DNA of 64,000 nucleotides from Polymorphobacter multimanifer (GTDB taxonomy: Bacteria > Pseudomonadota > Alphaproteobacteria > Sphingomonadales > Sphingomonadaceae): the NCBI RefSeq assembly GCF_014205635.1, contig NZ_JACIIV010000002.1:62001-126000 (forward strand), in the 5' to 3' direction. Shown here piece after piece: positions 5,009-32,967 of the stretch. The first letter of the stretch is position 1; each line of letters opens with the position of its first letter. The translations under genes were made by a program, and so were the position numbers. Under the pieces are notes generated by a model. It saw only the letters and a program-made list of their open reading frames with translations. It searched no databases and was not told where the DNA came from.

Positions 5009-7191
5009 CTGCCGGTTCCTTCAAAGCGAAGCAAAAGGCCGGCAAGCGGCGGTACGACGATATCGGCACTGGCCGGCTGGCCGTCCGCCGGCTCGGCTCG
5101 GGCGTGCACCACGCCGGCATTGCCGATGTTCCCACCGCCATAGATGTCGGCGTCGCTGTTGAGCACTTCGCGCCAGCGACCGGCGCGCGGCATGCCGATG
5201 CGAAAGCCGTGATGGGGATCGGGGCTCATGTTGATCACCACCACCAATGGTGAATCACCGGTGTTGCCGTGGCGTGCATAGACAAGGATGCTGCGCTCGG
5301 CATCGGCACCAACGATCCACTCGAAGCCCGCCGGCTCGGCGTCGCGCGCGTGCAGCGCAGGCTGCTCGGCATAAAGGCGGTTGAGATCGCGCAGCAACCG
5401 TTGCATCGCGGCATGGTCGGGCTCGTCGAGCAGTTGCCACGCCACCTGCGCATCATGGTTCCACTCGCTGTCCTGCGCGATCTCGCAGCCCATGAAGAGC
5501 AGCTTCTTGCCCGGATGCGTCCACATGAAGCTGAAATAGGCGCGCAGATTGGCAAACTTGCGCCAGCGATCGCCGGGCATCTTGCCAATGAGCGATCCCT
5601 TGCCGTGCACCACCTCGTCATGGCTGATCGGCAGCACGAACTTCTCCGACCAGGCATAGACCAGCCCGAAGGTCAGCTCGCCATGGTGCCAGCGGCGATA
5701 CAGCGGGTCGCGCTCGGCATATTGGAGCGTGTCGTGCATCCAGCCCATGTTCCATTTGTACGAAAAGCCGAGGCCGCCCTGCGCCACCGGCGCCGACACG
5801 CCCGGCCAGGCGGTCGATTCCTCGGCGATGGTCATCACACCGGGAAAACGCTCCCCCACCACGCTGTTCATGCGCTTCAGGAAGGCGACCGATTCCAGAT
5901 TCTCGCGGCCGCCATGGATGTTGGGCACCCATTCGCCGGCGTTGCGGCTGTAATCGCGATACAGCATTGACGCGACCGCATCGACGCGCAGCCCGTCGAT
6001 ATGGAATGTCTCGAGCCACCAAAACGCCGATGCGAGCAGAAACCCCGACACTTCGCGCCGACCCAGATTGTAGATCAGCGTGTTCCAGTCCTGATGGAAG
6101 CCCTCGCGCGGATCGGCATGTTCATAGAGCGGCGTGCCATCGAAATGCGCCAGCCCATGCACATCGGTCGGGAAATGCGCTGGCACCCAGTCGAGGATCA
6201 CCCCGATCCCCGAGCGGTGGCAGGCATCGACAAACCCCGCAAACTGGTCGGGCCGCCCGAACCGCGCCGAAGGTGCGAATTGCGACAACGGCTGATAGCC
6301 CCAGGACCCGCCGAACGGATGCTCCATGATCGGCAGCAGTTCGATATGGGTGAAGCCCATGTCGACGACATAGGGGATCAACCGATCGCCCAGCGCCTGC
6401 CAGTCGAGCGTTCCCGTCGGGTCACCGTCCGGTCGCAGCCAGGACGCGGGATGCACCTCGTAGATCGAGATCGGCGCATCGGGGGCGTGGCGCGCGGCGC
6501 GCTCGGCCAGCCAGTCGCCATCGGACCAGGCATAATCGGGCGGCGGCGCGACGATCGATCCCGTCGCCGGCGGCAATTCGGTCTGCCGCGCCAGCGGATC
6601 GGCCTTCTGGACGATGCTGCCATCGGCACCCGCAATCTCGAACTTGTAGTGCGCGCCCGCGCCGATCCGCGGCACGAACAGCTCCCACACGCCGGCACTC
6701 TGCCGCAGCCGCATCGGATGGCGGCGACCGTCCCAACCGTTGAAATCGCCCACCACCGAGACGCGGCGCGCGTTGGGCGCCCACACCGAAAACGCCACGC
6801 CGTCGATGCCATCCATCTGCCGCGGATGGGCGCCCATCACCTGCCCGAGTTCCAGATGAAGGCCCTCGTTGAACAGGTGCAGGTCGAGTTCGCCCAGCAC
6901 CAGCCCGAAGCCATAGGCGTCCTCGGTCTCCTGCATCGCCCCGCCCGGCCAGGCGATCCGCAGCGCATAAGGCACAGTCTCGGCCAGCCTGCCGACGAAC
7001 AGCCCCGGCGCCGATTCTTCAAGCGTGCCGAGCGGTCGGCCATCGTCGCGCGCGATCAGCGACAACGCCTCGGCGCCGGGCTGGAAGGTACGCACCTCGC
7101 CGTCATGGGCGCCCAGCACCGCGAAAGGATCATCCAGCCGGCTTTCGAGCAGTGCCGCAGTGGCAGCCGAGAGGGAGTTGCGCGCCATCAC
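5005..7191 (-). CDS. glgB: 1,4-alpha-glucan branching enzyme
   Basis: GlgB cuts alpha-1,4 chains and reattaches them as alpha-1,6 branches. The 728-residue protein matches the long, enterobacterial-type architecture: two N-terminal beta-sandwich modules (about 1-110 and 115-215), a GH13 barrel and a C-terminal beta-domain. Motifs include [32 protein letters not shown] (nucleophile near 402), [11 protein letters not shown] (acid/base near 456) and [12 protein letters not shown] strong AGGAGG lies seven bases before GTG at 7191 and ten before an in-frame ATG at 7188; GTG is preferred. This gives a four-base overlap (GTGA) with the upstream treS-mak gene. It probably branches the linear glucan made by the neighbouring GlgE. 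Confidence 0.96.
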
Positions 7192-10100
7192 GCGCCATCC
7201 TCCTGCAACAGTCGCGCGGCGGCGCGGGCCAGTCCCGCTGCGGGAACGCCCATCCAGGCAGGGCGATTGGCGGCTTCATAGACAACTTCATAGGCAGCCT
7301 TTTCGAGCACCATCAGGTCGAGCAGCCGGTCGTCGATTGTCTCCGAAACGCCGTGATAGCCCTCCATGAAGGCCCGGCAGGCGCTCTCTCGGAACACCTC
7401 GTAGCGGGCGTCGGTGCGTGCCTCTTCGGACTCGGCCATCGCCGGGCGGGCGCGCTCGGCGACTGCAGCGGCATAGTCGAAAGAGCGCAGCATGCCGGCC
7501 ACGTCGCGTTCGGGCAGGTCCTTGGCGCGCCGTTCTTCGAGGGATCGCACCGGCTCGCCTTCGAAGTCGATCAGCATCACGTCGCTGCCGGTGACGAGCA
7601 TCTGGCCCAGATGCAAGTCGCCATGGATGCGCGTGCGGGTGCGTCCCTCGGCGTGCCGCGCGACCGCGCGGATCCGCGCCATGATGTCGGCTCGGTTGGC
7701 GCGAAGATCGGCGACAGCCTCCGTATCGCCGTCAGCCGATGATGCGGCGGCCAATGCCGCCAGCGCCTTGTCGAACTGGCCTTCGATCCGCCCCGAAAGC
7801 GTGTCGGCATCGGCAAGGCTCATCCGCTCGGGAGCAAAGGCCATATCGTCGCTCGGCGCCGCCAGAACGCCATGCATCTGAGCAAGGCGAACGCCGACAT
7901 TGCGGGCGAAATTCTCGTAGTTTTGCGAGCTCCAGTCGGCATCGGTCGCCAGCCGGTCGAGCATGCCCAACGTCCATTCCCAGCCATCGCCCTGGTTGTA
8001 GACGAAGCGCTGCACCAGCATCAGCAGCGTGGAGCGGTCGCCCTCGTCGAGCCAGACCTCGCCGGAAATGGCAGGCACATTCTCGAAACCATTGGCGGCC
8101 AGATGGCGCACCATTTCGGCATCGGGGTGAACGCCCGGCTGCACCTTGCGCAGCAGCTTGAGCACCACGCGCCGGCCCAGCACCATCGTGCTGTTGGATT
8201 GCTCCGCGCCGATCCACTCGGGTGCCGCATCGGGTTCGATGTCGAGCGCGTCGGTTCCGGCGAAGCGCAAGTTGCCACCCTCAACGGCCACTTCATCATT
8301 GCGCTTGAGCGCGCCCACCACCGCTTCCGCAAAGGCTGCAACGGCAAAGCCATCGGTCAACAGCCCCACCCGGCGTTCCCTGCGCACCCGGCCAACCGCC
8401 AGGTTCGAAGCGAAAGGCCCATGGTGCTCGCCTTCCCAGGCGATGCCGAGCGGCAGCGTATAGGCCTGGGTGCCCGCGTCGGTTGTCACTTCGATCAACG
8501 TCAGCATCAGGTCGGCCACGCCGGGCATCGGAATCGTCCGCCCCACACGAACCTGCGATATCGTCTGGTCCTTGGCCCCGAACCAGCGGCGATGCGCGAC
8601 ATAGGCTGGCAGGATTTCGGTCTCGAGCACCTGCACGTTGCGGCCTTGCGTGACGCCCGAAAGATCCGGCCGAAGCACGAAGGTATGGCGCTCGACTTCG
8701 GCACCGGGGGCCGCACTCGACCATTGCGGCGCCGTCTTGTCGTTCGACAGCTTGAACCAGATGAATCCATAGGGCGGCAATGTGAGGAGATAGGGCAGCT
8801 GGCCGATCGCCGGGAAGGTCGCGCTGCCCGAAAGCTCGACCGGCGTGCGGCCGACATATTCATGCAGGTCCAGTTCCACCGCCTGCGCGGTGCGCCCCAG
8901 ATTGGCAACACACAGCACGACCTCGTCATCCTTCTCGCGCAGATAGGCGAGGATCTTGCGGTTGGCAGGCCGCAGGAAGCGCTGCGTGCCGCGCCCGAAG
9001 GCGCGATACTCGCGCCGCACCGCGAGCATCCGCTTGATCCAGTTGAGCATCGAGTGCTGGTCGCGCTCCTGCGCCTCGACGTTCACCGCCTGGAAGCCAT
9101 AGAGCGGGTCCATGATCGGCGGCAGGGTCAGGCTGGCGGGATCGGCGCGCGAAAAGCCGCCATTGCGATCCGATGACCATTGCATCGGCGTCCGCACCCC
9201 GTCCCGGTCACCGAGATAGACATTGTCGCCCATCCCGATCTCGTCGCCATAATAGAGCACCGGCGTCCCCGGCATCGTCAGCAGCAGCGCGTTCATCAGC
9301 TCGATGCGGCGCCGGTCGCGCTCCATCAGCGGTGCCAGCCGGCGCCGGATCCCCAGGTTTATCCGCGCGCGCTTGTCGGCAGCATAGGTGTTCCACAGAT
9401 AGTCGCGCTCCTCGTCGGTCACCATCTCGAGCGTCAGCTCGTCATGGTTGCGCAGGAAGATCGCCCATTGGCAGTTTTCGGGAATCTCGGGCGTCTGCCG
9501 CATGATGTCGGTGATCGGAAACCGGTCCTCCTGCGCCACCGCCATGTACATCCGCGGCATCAGCGGAAAATGGAACGACATGTGGCATTCGTCGCCATAG
9601 CCCTGGTCATTGGTGTCGCCGAAATATTGCTGGGTGTCCTCGGGCCACATGTTGGCCTCCGCCAGAAGCATCCGGTCGGGGTAATGCGCATCGAGATTGG
9701 CGCGGATCTTCTTCAGCACATCGTGCGTTTCAGGCAGATTTTCGTTCGAGGTGCCGTCGCGCTCGATCAGATAGGGGATGGCGTCGAGCCGCAACCCGTC
9801 CACCCCGGCGTCGAGCCAGAAATGCATGACCGACAGGACTTCTTCAAGCACCTTGGGGTTGTCGAAATTGAGGTCGGGCTGGTGCGAATAGAAGCGGTGC
9901 CAGAAATAGGCCTGCGCTTCGTCGTCCCACGTCCAATTCGATTTCTCGGTGTCGCAGAAGATGATCCGCGTGCCGGAATACAGCTTGTCATTGTCCGACC
10001 AGACGTAGAAATCGCGCTCGGGGCTGCCGGCAGGCGCCTTGCGCGCCGCCTGGAACCACCGATGTTGGTCAGATGTATGATTTATCACCAGCTCGGTGAT

Positions 10101-30712: not shown

Positions 30713-31351
30713 TCAGACGAGCACGCTCGTAGGCCGCGGCACATCGGCCAGATCCGAGTGGCGATCGAGCTCCATCAATGGCTTGATGAGGCCATCGCGC
30801 AAATCATAGACCCAGCCGTGCAGCTTCACGTCCTGGCCGCGCGCGAATGCCGCCTGCACCGGCCCCGAGCGCGCGAGCCGCACCAGCTGGTCACGCACGT
30901 TACACTCGACAAAGCGTGATAGCCGGCTCTCCTCGTCCGACATGGCATCGATTTCTTCGAGATGGTTGTCATACACCTCGCGCGCCGGCGCCAGCCACTG
31001 GTCGATCAGGTCCTTGGCGTCACCGCGAAGCGCCCGGCCGAGGGTCACACAGTCATGGTTGCCGCACACGATGATGTGCTTCACCCCCAGGTCGACGAGC
31101 GCATGCTCGACCGCCGACATCAGGTTGAGGTCGCTTTCGGACACGAGGTTGCCGAGGTTGCGGTGGATGTACAGGCTGCCCGGCGGCGAGCGCGTGATGC
31201 GCTCGGGCACCACCCGGCTGTCCGACGAGCCGATCCACAGGAACACCGGATTCTCCGGCCCGGCATGGCGGCTGAAATAATCGGGATCGTCCTGATGCTT
31301 TTCCACCTGCCACGCCATGTTGGCGAGGATCAGCTGCTTGTATTCGCTCAT
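30713..31351 (-). CDS. beta-carbonic-anhydrase-like protein lacking two zinc ligands
   Basis: The 212-residue protein aligns over its full length with the bacterial Can clade of beta-carbonic anhydrases (FLWIGSSDSRVVPERIT, SLYIHRNLGNLV, GWVYDLRDGLIKPL). The family binds zinc with Cys42, His98 and Cys101 (E. coli Can numbering, which this protein shares). Here residue 42 is Ser (codon at 31226-31228) and 98 is Asn (31058-31060); only Cys101 remains, and a His appears at 99. The Asp44-Arg46 dyad is kept. It may be a pseudoenzyme, a partner subunit or use an altered metal site. ATG 31351 overlaps the SulP stop by four bases, so the pair is coupled. Frame upstream of 31351 is antisense-quality and was excluded. 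Confidence 0.85.
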   Translation of the reverse strand: MSEYKQLILANMAWQVEKHQDDPDYFSRHAGPENPVFLWIGSSDSRVVPERITRSPPGSLYIHRNLGNLVSESDLNLMSAVEHALVDLGVKHIIVCGNHDCVTLGRALRGDAKDLIDQWLAPAREVYDNHLEEIDAMSDEESRLSRFVECNVRDQLVRLARSGPVQAAFARGQDVKLHGWVYDLRDGLIKPLMELDRHSDLADVPRPTSVLV

Positions 31352-32967
31352 GCTGCCGATCCTTCCAGTGCCGCAGCCGGCCCGCCGGCGCGGATGCTGC
31401 TGCCCATCACCCCGATCAGCGGCGCATTGATGAGCGGTGCCGTGCGGCCCGCCGGATCGCCCTTCAGCCGCACCTTGATGCCACGGAAGGGAGCACCCTT
31501 GATGAAGCCGTTGATGATGTCGACATTGTCGAGATCGACGAAGCTGGTGCTCGAAAGATCGATGATCAGCTCGGCGCCCTCGGGCACCCTCAGCAGCGCT
31601 TCCTGCAGCTGCGGCTTGTGGATGAAGTAGAGGTCGCGTCGTGCGCGCACCATCACCATGTCCTCGCGCTCGACATAGCTGATAGCAGTGCGGAAGTTCC
31701 GCGCGATCACGAAGCCGAAACCCACCACCAGCCCGATGCCGATCCCGATGAGCAGATCGGTGAACAGGATCGCCACCACCGTCACCACAAAGGGAATGAA
31801 CTGCGTGTATCCCTGCTTCCAGCGCGCCACGAACAGGCTCGGCTTGGCGAGCTTGTAGCCGGTCTGGATCAGGATCGCCGCCAGTGCGGACAGCGGGATC
31901 AGGTTGATGATCGTCGGCACCAGCACCACCGCCAGCAGCAGCCAGCCACCATGGAGCATTGTCGAGAGCTTGCTGTCGGCACCGGCTTCCACATTCGCCG
32001 AGGAGCGCACGATCACGCTGGTCACCGGCAGGCCGCCGATCAGGCCCGACGCCAGATTGCCGACGCCCTGCGCCAGCAGTTCGCGATTCTTGTCGGTCAC
32101 CCGCCGCTTGCGGTCGATTTCGTCCACCGCCTTCACGCTGAGCAGTGTTTCGAGGCTGGCGACGATCGCCAGCGTCAGCGCCACCGTCCACACCGCCGTG
32201 TTGCCGATCTGGCTGAAATCCGGAAACGTCAGCAGGGCGGCAAATTCGGCGCGGCTCACCGCGACCGGCACCTGCACCAGCTGCTCGGCACCGATCCGCA
32301 GCCCCGGCGCACCGAGCCCGAACCCGGTGTTCACCGCCACCGCCACGACCACCACCACCAGCGGCCCCGGCAGCAGCTTCAACGCACCGGTCTTGGGCCG
32401 CGCCTTGTCCCACCAGAACAGGAAGGCAATGCTCGCCAGCGCCACCAGCAATGCGCCTAGGGCGATGTCCCGCTGCAGCATTGCTCCCAGCTCCGAGAAG
32501 GTGTTCTCGCCATCGGCCTGCAAGAACGAGAAGCTCCCCTCGAAATCACCGCGATAGCCGATCGCATAGGGCAGCTGCTTCAGGATCAGGATGAGCCCGA
32601 TCGCCGACAGCATGCCGATCACCACCGACGATGGCACGAACTCGGCCAGCACGCCGCCGCGCGACACCGAAAAGATCAGCTGCAGGACACCAGCGAGGCA
32701 AACCGCCAGAAAGAAGGCCTCAAGCGAGGGCAGCGTCTCGATGGCGGTGAACACGATCGCCGTCAGCCCCGCCGCAGGCCCCGAAACCGAAAGCGCCGAT
32801 TTGCTCAGCGCTCCCACCACGATCCCGCCCATGATGCCCGCGATCAGCCCCGAAAGCGGCGGCGCGCCGCTCGCCACCGCAACCCCGAGGCACAGCGGCA
32901 AGGCCACCAGTGCCACCACGATCGAGGCAGGCAGATCGCTCCGCCAGCTGGCAAACACGCTTCTCAT
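31348..32967 (-). CDS. SulP family inorganic anion transporter
   Basis: The 539-residue inner membrane protein has the SulP layout: about 12-14 hydrophobic helices up to residue 410 (signature LVALPLCLGVAVASGAPPLSG, ALSVSGPAAGLTAIV, QGVGNLASGLIGGLPVTSVI) and a C-terminal STAS-type domain (about 425-525, LIIDLSSTSFVDLDNVDIIN). Family members carry sulfate, bicarbonate or other anions. Translational coupling with a carbonic-anhydrase homologue points to bicarbonate, but this is inference, more so because the homologue lacks zinc ligands. ATG 32967 is used; the upstream site is weak. Confidence 0.92.
   Translation of the reverse strand: MRSVFASWRSDLPASIVVALVALPLCLGVAVASGAPPLSGLIAGIMGGIVVGALSKSALSVSGPAAGLTAIVFTAIETLPSLEAFFLAVCLAGVLQLIFSVSRGGVLAEFVPSSVVIGMLSAIGLILILKQLPYAIGYRGDFEGSFSFLQADGENTFSELGAMLQRDIALGALLVALASIAFLFWWDKARPKTGALKLLPGPLVVVVVAVAVNTGFGLGAPGLRIGAEQLVQVPVAVSRAEFAALLTFPDFSQIGNTAVWTVALTLAIVASLETLLSVKAVDEIDRKRRVTDKNRELLAQGVGNLASGLIGGLPVTSVIVRSSANVEAGADSKLSTMLHGGWLLLAVVLVPTIINLIPLSALAAILIQTGYKLAKPSLFVARWKQGYTQFIPFVVTVVAILFTDLLIGIGIGLVVGFGFVIARNFRTAISYVEREDMVMVRARRDLYFIHKPQLQEALLRVPEGAELIIDLSSTSFVDLDNVDIINGFIKGAPFRGIKVRLKGDPAGRTAPLINAPLIGVMGSSIRAGGPAAALEGSAA

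Follow-up and report, generated by a model that had tools for sequence, protein, structure and literature searches.

The window, that is, the whole 64,000-nucleotide stretch of Polymorphobacter multimanifer DNA that was analysed, encodes a β-carbonic anhydrase (CA) homologue that lacks two of the three protein zinc ligands and is paired with a SulP-family anion transporter. We propose, with about even confidence, that this protein is a pseudo-carbonic anhydrase which has retained its fold and persists as a partner of SulP without a catalytic role. At the level of the sequence, the residue losses, the open frame, the predicted fold, the intact SulP gene and the conserved pairing are established, and so are a second, intact β-CA at another place in the genome and a lineage of ligand-lost copies that arose independently and is maintained by selection. 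The features concerned are given below; the rows referred to are those of an alignment of 60 SulP-linked copies including that of the window (in one of them, L111, the SulP is a fragment), and residue numbers as far as 101 are those of E. coli Can.

30713-31351, minus strand: ligand-depleted β-carbonic anhydrase homologue, 212 aa (open reading frame and translation, Pro_CA match, model).
31226-31228, minus strand: codon 42, TCG, Ser instead of the zinc ligand Cys (59 other rows: Cys in 52, Gly in 7).
31058-31060, minus strand: codon 98, AAC, Asn instead of the zinc ligand His (59 other rows: His in 58, Ile in 1).
31049-31051, minus strand: codon 101, Cys, sole remainder of the three protein zinc ligands (Cys in 60/60 rows).
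31253-31255, minus strand: codon 33, Glu for Gln33 (Gln in 59/59 other rows).
31043-31048, minus strand: codons 103 and 102, Thr and Val for the Gly-Gly adjoining Cys101 (other rows: Gly103 in 59/59, Gly102 in 49/59).
31214-31222, minus strand: codons 44 to 46, Asp-Ser-Arg, dyad kept (Asp44 and Arg46 in 60/60 rows).
31235-31237, minus strand: codon 39, Trp, which together with Arg64 (31160-31162) and Tyr182 (30806-30808) is found in 60/60 rows.
31348-32967, minus strand: anion transporter of the SulP family (539 aa, STAS domain included), encoded upstream of the CA gene and in the same direction (Pfam PF00916 and PF01740; 182/188 conserved columns kept).
31348-31351, minus strand: ATGA overlap of 4 nt between the SulP stop and the CA start (read from the sequence).

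The CA frame (30713-31351, minus strand) runs through its 212 codons without interruption. A sequence-only reading of this DNA had reported the replacement of Cys42 by Ser and of His98 by Asn, and both codons were confirmed on the minus strand, as were Cys101, Asp44 and Arg46 and the presence of a His at position 99; the sequence also has Asp at position 100 and Glu at position 33. Beyond what that reading had noticed, the protein is also devoid of Gln33, Gly102 and Gly103. To place these changes among the others, a column was called conserved when it was so in at least 95% of the 52 intact rows, a definition under which 63 columns qualified, L212-L215, for which no SulP was found, being left out of the conserved-column counts and of the 52-row tree described below. 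The window protein departs at 7 of these 63 columns: Q33E, C42S, A67G, V80A, H98N, G103T and G114D. Three of the seven departures hit the 6 ligand or catalytic columns (hypergeometric P 0.015), and counting Gly103 four of the seven lie at the active site (P 0.0018), P values that are modest evidence of enrichment, the list of active-site columns having been fixed after the losses were seen. This list was drawn from β-CA chemistry as we take it to be. That an ordinary β-CA was misread or misassembled has next to no probability in our view: it is true that the gene is known only from the assembled letters of a single assembly, but seven departures at conserved columns lie within an open frame with codon-position GC values of 0.69/0.39/0.84, and two of the new codons (TCG at Cys42, ACC at Gly103) are each two base changes away from any codon of the replaced residue. 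Several conserved codons being changed within an open frame, a read error is thus unlikely even for this single assembly.

By sequence and predicted fold the protein belongs to the β-CA family. Pfam Pro_CA matches residues 38-188 (E 1.4e-37) and is the only Pfam match at E 0.001, residues 4-192 align with the E. coli β-CA 1i6o, and other solved β-CAs such as 4o1k also align. The AlphaFold model, for which 25 relatives were supplied, has a pLDDT of 92.9 and a pTM of 0.87; the Foldseek rows listed for this model are headed by β-CAs, the best PDB match being 4o1k (TM 0.85, rmsd 1.4), and its nearest PDB matches include the enzymes of E. coli and H. influenzae. The earlier suggestion that the β-CA fold is otherwise intact is hence borne out by the predicted model, with the reservation that point changes may leave an AlphaFold prediction unaffected. 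Family membership by sequence and by predicted fold, as well as the Asp44-Arg46 dyad, was found; the Cys-His-Cys zinc triad was not, the three positions being occupied by Ser42, Asn98 and Cys101. The NCBIfam model PRK10437 (carbonate dehydratase, Can equivalog) matches at 162.5 bits against a cut-off of 251, a shortfall that may be common to intact orthologues.

The closest described enzymes are the type II β-CAs (E. coli Can/YadF and H. influenzae HICA), with which the window protein shares the fold, the length, Asp44-Arg46, Cys101, Trp39, Arg64 and the Tyr, and from which it differs by the replacement of Cys42, His98, Gln33, Gly102 and Gly103. We take Trp39, Arg64 and Tyr182 to be the non-catalytic bicarbonate pocket of the type II enzymes, in which the Tyr is Tyr181. 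Such a non-catalytic bicarbonate site is named in the title of Cronk 2006, and there are PDB entries whose titles give Y181F with bicarbonate. The type II zinc site is Cys-Asp-His-Cys according to an excerpt of PMC7287614, and with these five residues replaced such a site cannot form as described in the window protein. One may ask whether the protein could hydrate CO2 with no metal at all, by analogy with the COG4337 proteins and crotonyl-CoA carboxylase/reductase. These have folds other than that of β-CAs. Metal-free CO2 hydration is indeed reported in PMC8132391 and PMC10966969, but for such unrelated proteins, whereas Pro_CA is the one Pfam family that the window protein matches at E 0.001, and Gln33 is a further residue that it no longer has; we regard this explanation as very improbable.

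The SulP gene upstream is intact, with a Pfam Sulfate_transp match (E 7.2e-55) in addition to the STAS domain. The four-base overlap with the CA gene, which had been pointed out before, was found as described, with the sequence ATGA; it suggests that translation of the two genes is coupled. Such a 4-nt overlap is present in 41/60 rows, the other 19 having a gap of 7-27 nt between the two genes. The NCBIfam models sulP, DauA and BicA all match the window SulP below their cut-offs, and bicarbonate as its substrate is a likely guess. At the conserved columns of SulP, the window has no departure that recurs in 5 or more of the 7 rows whose CA has Gly at position 42; H229Q is common to the window and L201 alone. 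The window SulP (31348-32967) also has an Ala/Gly-rich C-terminal tail, GSSIRAGGPAAALEGSAA, and the 11 other tails compared end sooner.

We then asked how the altered site is distributed. Matches at E <= 1e-30 were obtained in 19/24 genomes of the genus, 43/397 of the family and 28/396 of the order, three samples that overlap, the larger ones being drawn from the bigger groups. The window gene is of the SulP-linked Sphingomonadaceae type: it lies directly 3' of SulP on the same strand, as in the orthologous loci. The 60 aligned rows comprise 52 intact copies (Cys42, Asp44, Arg46, His98 and Cys101), 7 copies with Gly42 and the Ser42/Asn98 copy of the window. L074, which is truncated at a contig end and shows no ligand columns, was dropped before these counts, and L040, an intact SulP-linked copy at only 38% identity, is outside the 60 aligned rows. 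The copy nearest to that of the window (L032, 64% identity) has its ligands intact, and the five nearest copies as well as 18/18 other copies from the same genus keep Cys42 and His98; the Ser-Asn state is therefore unique to one genome among those examined. A wider survey of β-CA genes, in which matches of less than 300 nt were dropped, yielded 223 CA places corresponding to 151 distinct cores, and the Ser42/Asn98 pair was absent from the 150 cores other than that of the window. The idea that the Ser-Asn pair marks a conserved subfamily, to be checked by alignment, was thus rejected; Cys42 and His98 in the orthologues of close relatives are what the sequence-only reading had itself named as evidence against it.

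The sequence-only reading had also raised a rewiring of the site through His99. More generally, zinc or another metal might be held by Cys101, Asp44 and new residues (Glu33, His99, Asp100), for CO2 hydration or for other chemistry. Such a rewired site is in keeping with the conservation of Asp44, Arg46 and Cys101 and with the position of the three potential new ligands, which are near the site in sequence. The argument for His99 is a weak one: a His99 is found beside an intact His98 in 11/52 intact copies, so that it is not a relocated ligand and there is no compensating shift, and as a special feature of the window protein it was rejected. As Gly102 and Gly103 are gone too, and as the candidate new ligands of the window protein are all absent from the Gly42 copies (which keep Gln33 and have Tyr99 and Gly100 in 7/7), we consider a rewired site improbable. 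These Gly42 copies do lend it one point of support, since 6/7 of them keep His98, Cys101 and Asp44, and may, judging from these residues, still bind zinc. The same possibility counts against the pseudo-carbonic anhydrase reading.

The Gly42 copies represent a second loss of a zinc ligand from the same gene pair. They comprise L123, L196, L197, L198, L199, L200 and L201, from 7 genomes and 2 genera (6/60 genomes of genus g104 and 1/10 of g7), and L201 additionally has Ile98. The gene order is the same in 7/7 of these loci: an intact-motif β-CA, SulP, and the Gly42 CA with an ATGA overlap (in L123 the Gly42 CA gene lies at 6716-7381). Among the intact loci, 37 had 1.2 kb or more of sequence upstream of SulP, and an extra CA 5' of SulP was found in 0/37 of them; 14 others had less flank. 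In a 52-row tree, from which L111 was left out, as it was from the SulP counts, a coding as intact or altered requires two changes (bootstrap range 2-2), and a coding with all four states requires three; the direction of change is not given by the tree, and the two changes are read as losses because the intact state is the general one. Of the distinct cores of the wider survey, 59 lie directly 3' of SulP (51 intact, 6 Gly42, 1 Gly42/Ile98 and that of the window). Ligand loss therefore affects 8/59 of the cores directly 3' of SulP vs 0/86 others, a contrast that is no more than suggestive, the eight losses having arisen in only two lineages; 6 further cores, all intact, had too little flank to be assigned. 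A core was counted among the 'others' when four SulP queries taken from this group detected no SulP immediately 5' of it, a procedure that may overlook a highly divergent SulP; the additional CAs of the Gly42 operons, whose SulP neighbour is on the 3' side, belong here. By itself the window would be an oddity, the event of one lineage; it becomes more interesting because the same pair has lost ligands independently and is kept under selection elsewhere. The earlier view that the locus is a notable variation on the usual SulP-CA pair thus holds in so far as ligand loss is recurrent and is maintained in the Gly42 lineage, and fails in so far as the Ser-Asn state itself occurs in one genome.

To estimate the selection acting on these genes we used our own codon model (GY-type, F3x4) on fixed trees; as synonymous sites are probably near saturation, the omega values are rough. 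On the window CA branch omega was 0.204 vs 0.094 elsewhere (ten rows), and equality of the two was mildly rejected (2dlnL 4.9), while omega = 1 was rejected on this branch (2dlnL 16.9). Without 8 active-site codons the branch had an omega of 0.24 (2dlnL 7.2 vs background and 10.1 vs omega 1). The window SulP branch had an omega of 0.104 and showed no relaxation (2dlnL 0.7). A model in which constraint on the window branch is followed by a neutral segment fitted about equally well (lnL -4748.0 vs -4747.5); in this model the neutral segment measures 0.30 substitutions per codon, over which 0.86 stops are expected and the probability of none is 0.42. Neutral drift along the whole of the window CA branch is therefore rejected, and recent decay is not. 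The Gly42 lineage has the pattern of a conversion after which constraint returned: omega was 1.20 on the stem (2dlnL 8.5 vs one ratio), 0.084 in the crown, where omega = 1 was rejected (2dlnL 631), and 0.066 at the L201 tip.

These values bear most directly on the possibility that the window gene is a CA that was inactivated recently and is turning into a pseudogene, in which, redundant beside another β-CA, the ligands have drifted and the frame is not yet broken. The restriction of the Ser-Asn state to the window genome, the mild relaxation of the branch and the about equal fit of a recent neutral segment, in which the lack of a stop is unsurprising, are all compatible with such a decay. Yet the losses concentrate at the active site, the fold is predicted with confidence, neither SulP nor the ATGA overlap is damaged, and a parallel ligand-lost lineage, that of Gly42, is under strong purifying selection. 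We consider this explanation possible, if somewhat unlikely. Whether the window CA decays faster than its own SulP was also examined, and no marked difference was found: its CA/SulP tip ratio was 1.9 on the SulP tree (rank 10 of 42 tips, median 1.4) and 1.7 on the CA tree (median 1.2), in a comparison that left out L115 and the rows with a SulP of less than 470 aa.

The window genome (3.92 Mb in 72 contigs) encodes a second β-CA on contig C14, in which all ligands are present (CSDSR ... CGHTDC). A match to a second β-CA is found in 16/18 same-genus genomes with an orthologue, and its presence is thus ordinary; unlike the extra CA of the Gly42 loci, that of the window genome lies outside the SulP operon. 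In the scheme that we propose, a protein with the β-CA fold and without a usable catalytic zinc site would be co-translated with the SulP anion transporter, catalysis in the cell being carried out by another, intact β-CA. The window protein itself would bind no zinc and hydrate no CO2; it would contact SulP physically and serve in stabilisation or gating, perhaps by means of the bicarbonate pocket that it has kept. The Gly42 operons, with an intact CA beside the pair, suggest how a handover of catalysis could occur.

The usual explanation for pairs of SulP and CA is a catalytic one, in which bicarbonate moved by the transporter is converted by the CA. Repeated ligand loss with the pair left intact would mean that the CA has a second job, structural or sensing, and the ligand-lost pairs would be natural separation-of-function variants with which to test it. 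Work on SulP-CA fusions was reportedly done by Felce and Saier. SulP-family bicarbonate transporters are described in a review (PMC10880623), and pairs or fusions of SulP with a β-CA, such as M. tuberculosis Rv3273, resemble the window locus in the coupling of a β-CA to an anion transporter; in PMC6834203, however, the CA domain of Rv3273 is described with conserved zinc-binding residues and activity studies, whereas the window protein is without two ligands. Among the matches listed from the open-access literature there was no report of a ligand-lost β-CA partner of SulP, which is weak evidence of absence.

Catalytically silent CAs are described in animals. The mammalian CA-related proteins VIII, X and XI have a CA fold that is non-catalytic because active-site histidines are missing, and they are reported to enhance the transporter MCT1 in a non-catalytic manner (both in passages of PMC6609565). 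They differ from the window protein, of which they are analogues and not relatives, by being animal proteins of the alpha-class fold, not coupled in an operon; the alpha-CA fold was not found in the window protein, Pro_CA being its sole Pfam match. If repeated loss holds, the SulP-linked copies would be a bacterial, β-class parallel to these proteins. The CA-like domain of RPTP-gamma is the extracellular part of an animal receptor phosphatase and of the alpha class, and thereby differs from the window protein. It too has its catalytic histidines missing, and it has been proposed to act as a bicarbonate sensor (excerpt of PMC7541084). A broader and unlikely reading would extend this to SulP-β-CA pairs in general: the CA would primarily be a bicarbonate-sensing regulatory subunit, with the pocket (Trp39-Arg64-Tyr182) and the fold as its conserved core, and the zinc site would be dispensable and have been discarded in at least two lineages with another intact CA. 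The three pocket residues, being kept in all 60 rows, permit a sensing role without proving it. Were it true, no other copy examined here would be as far reduced as the window protein, a sensor of the product made from the enzyme.

As for the placement of the window gene, the window CA groups with L032 and L105 with a support of 97/84 in a 37-row tree and of 92/78 in the 52-row tree, neither of which has an outgroup; the close relatives L012, L013, L014, L017, L018, L020 and L021 were left out of both trees. The trees of the two genes conflict: the window CA falls with genus g120 (L032 and L105; 97/84), and the window SulP with a clade rich in its own genus (92/89). Recombination or a long-branch effect may account for this conflict. 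The highest CA/SulP tip ratios were those of L123 and L129. The latter, a SulP-linked CA of genome G116 (6318-6905), has all its ligands present, the longest end branch (1.77) and a CA/SulP tip ratio of 3.9. Genome G118 has two SulP-CA loci, in one of which (L111, 6684-7561) the SulP is a 117-aa open reading frame covering the STAS end only, beside an intact CA. Finally, L177 (G873:C25:2296-2919), a β-CA match from another family, has an in-frame TAG.
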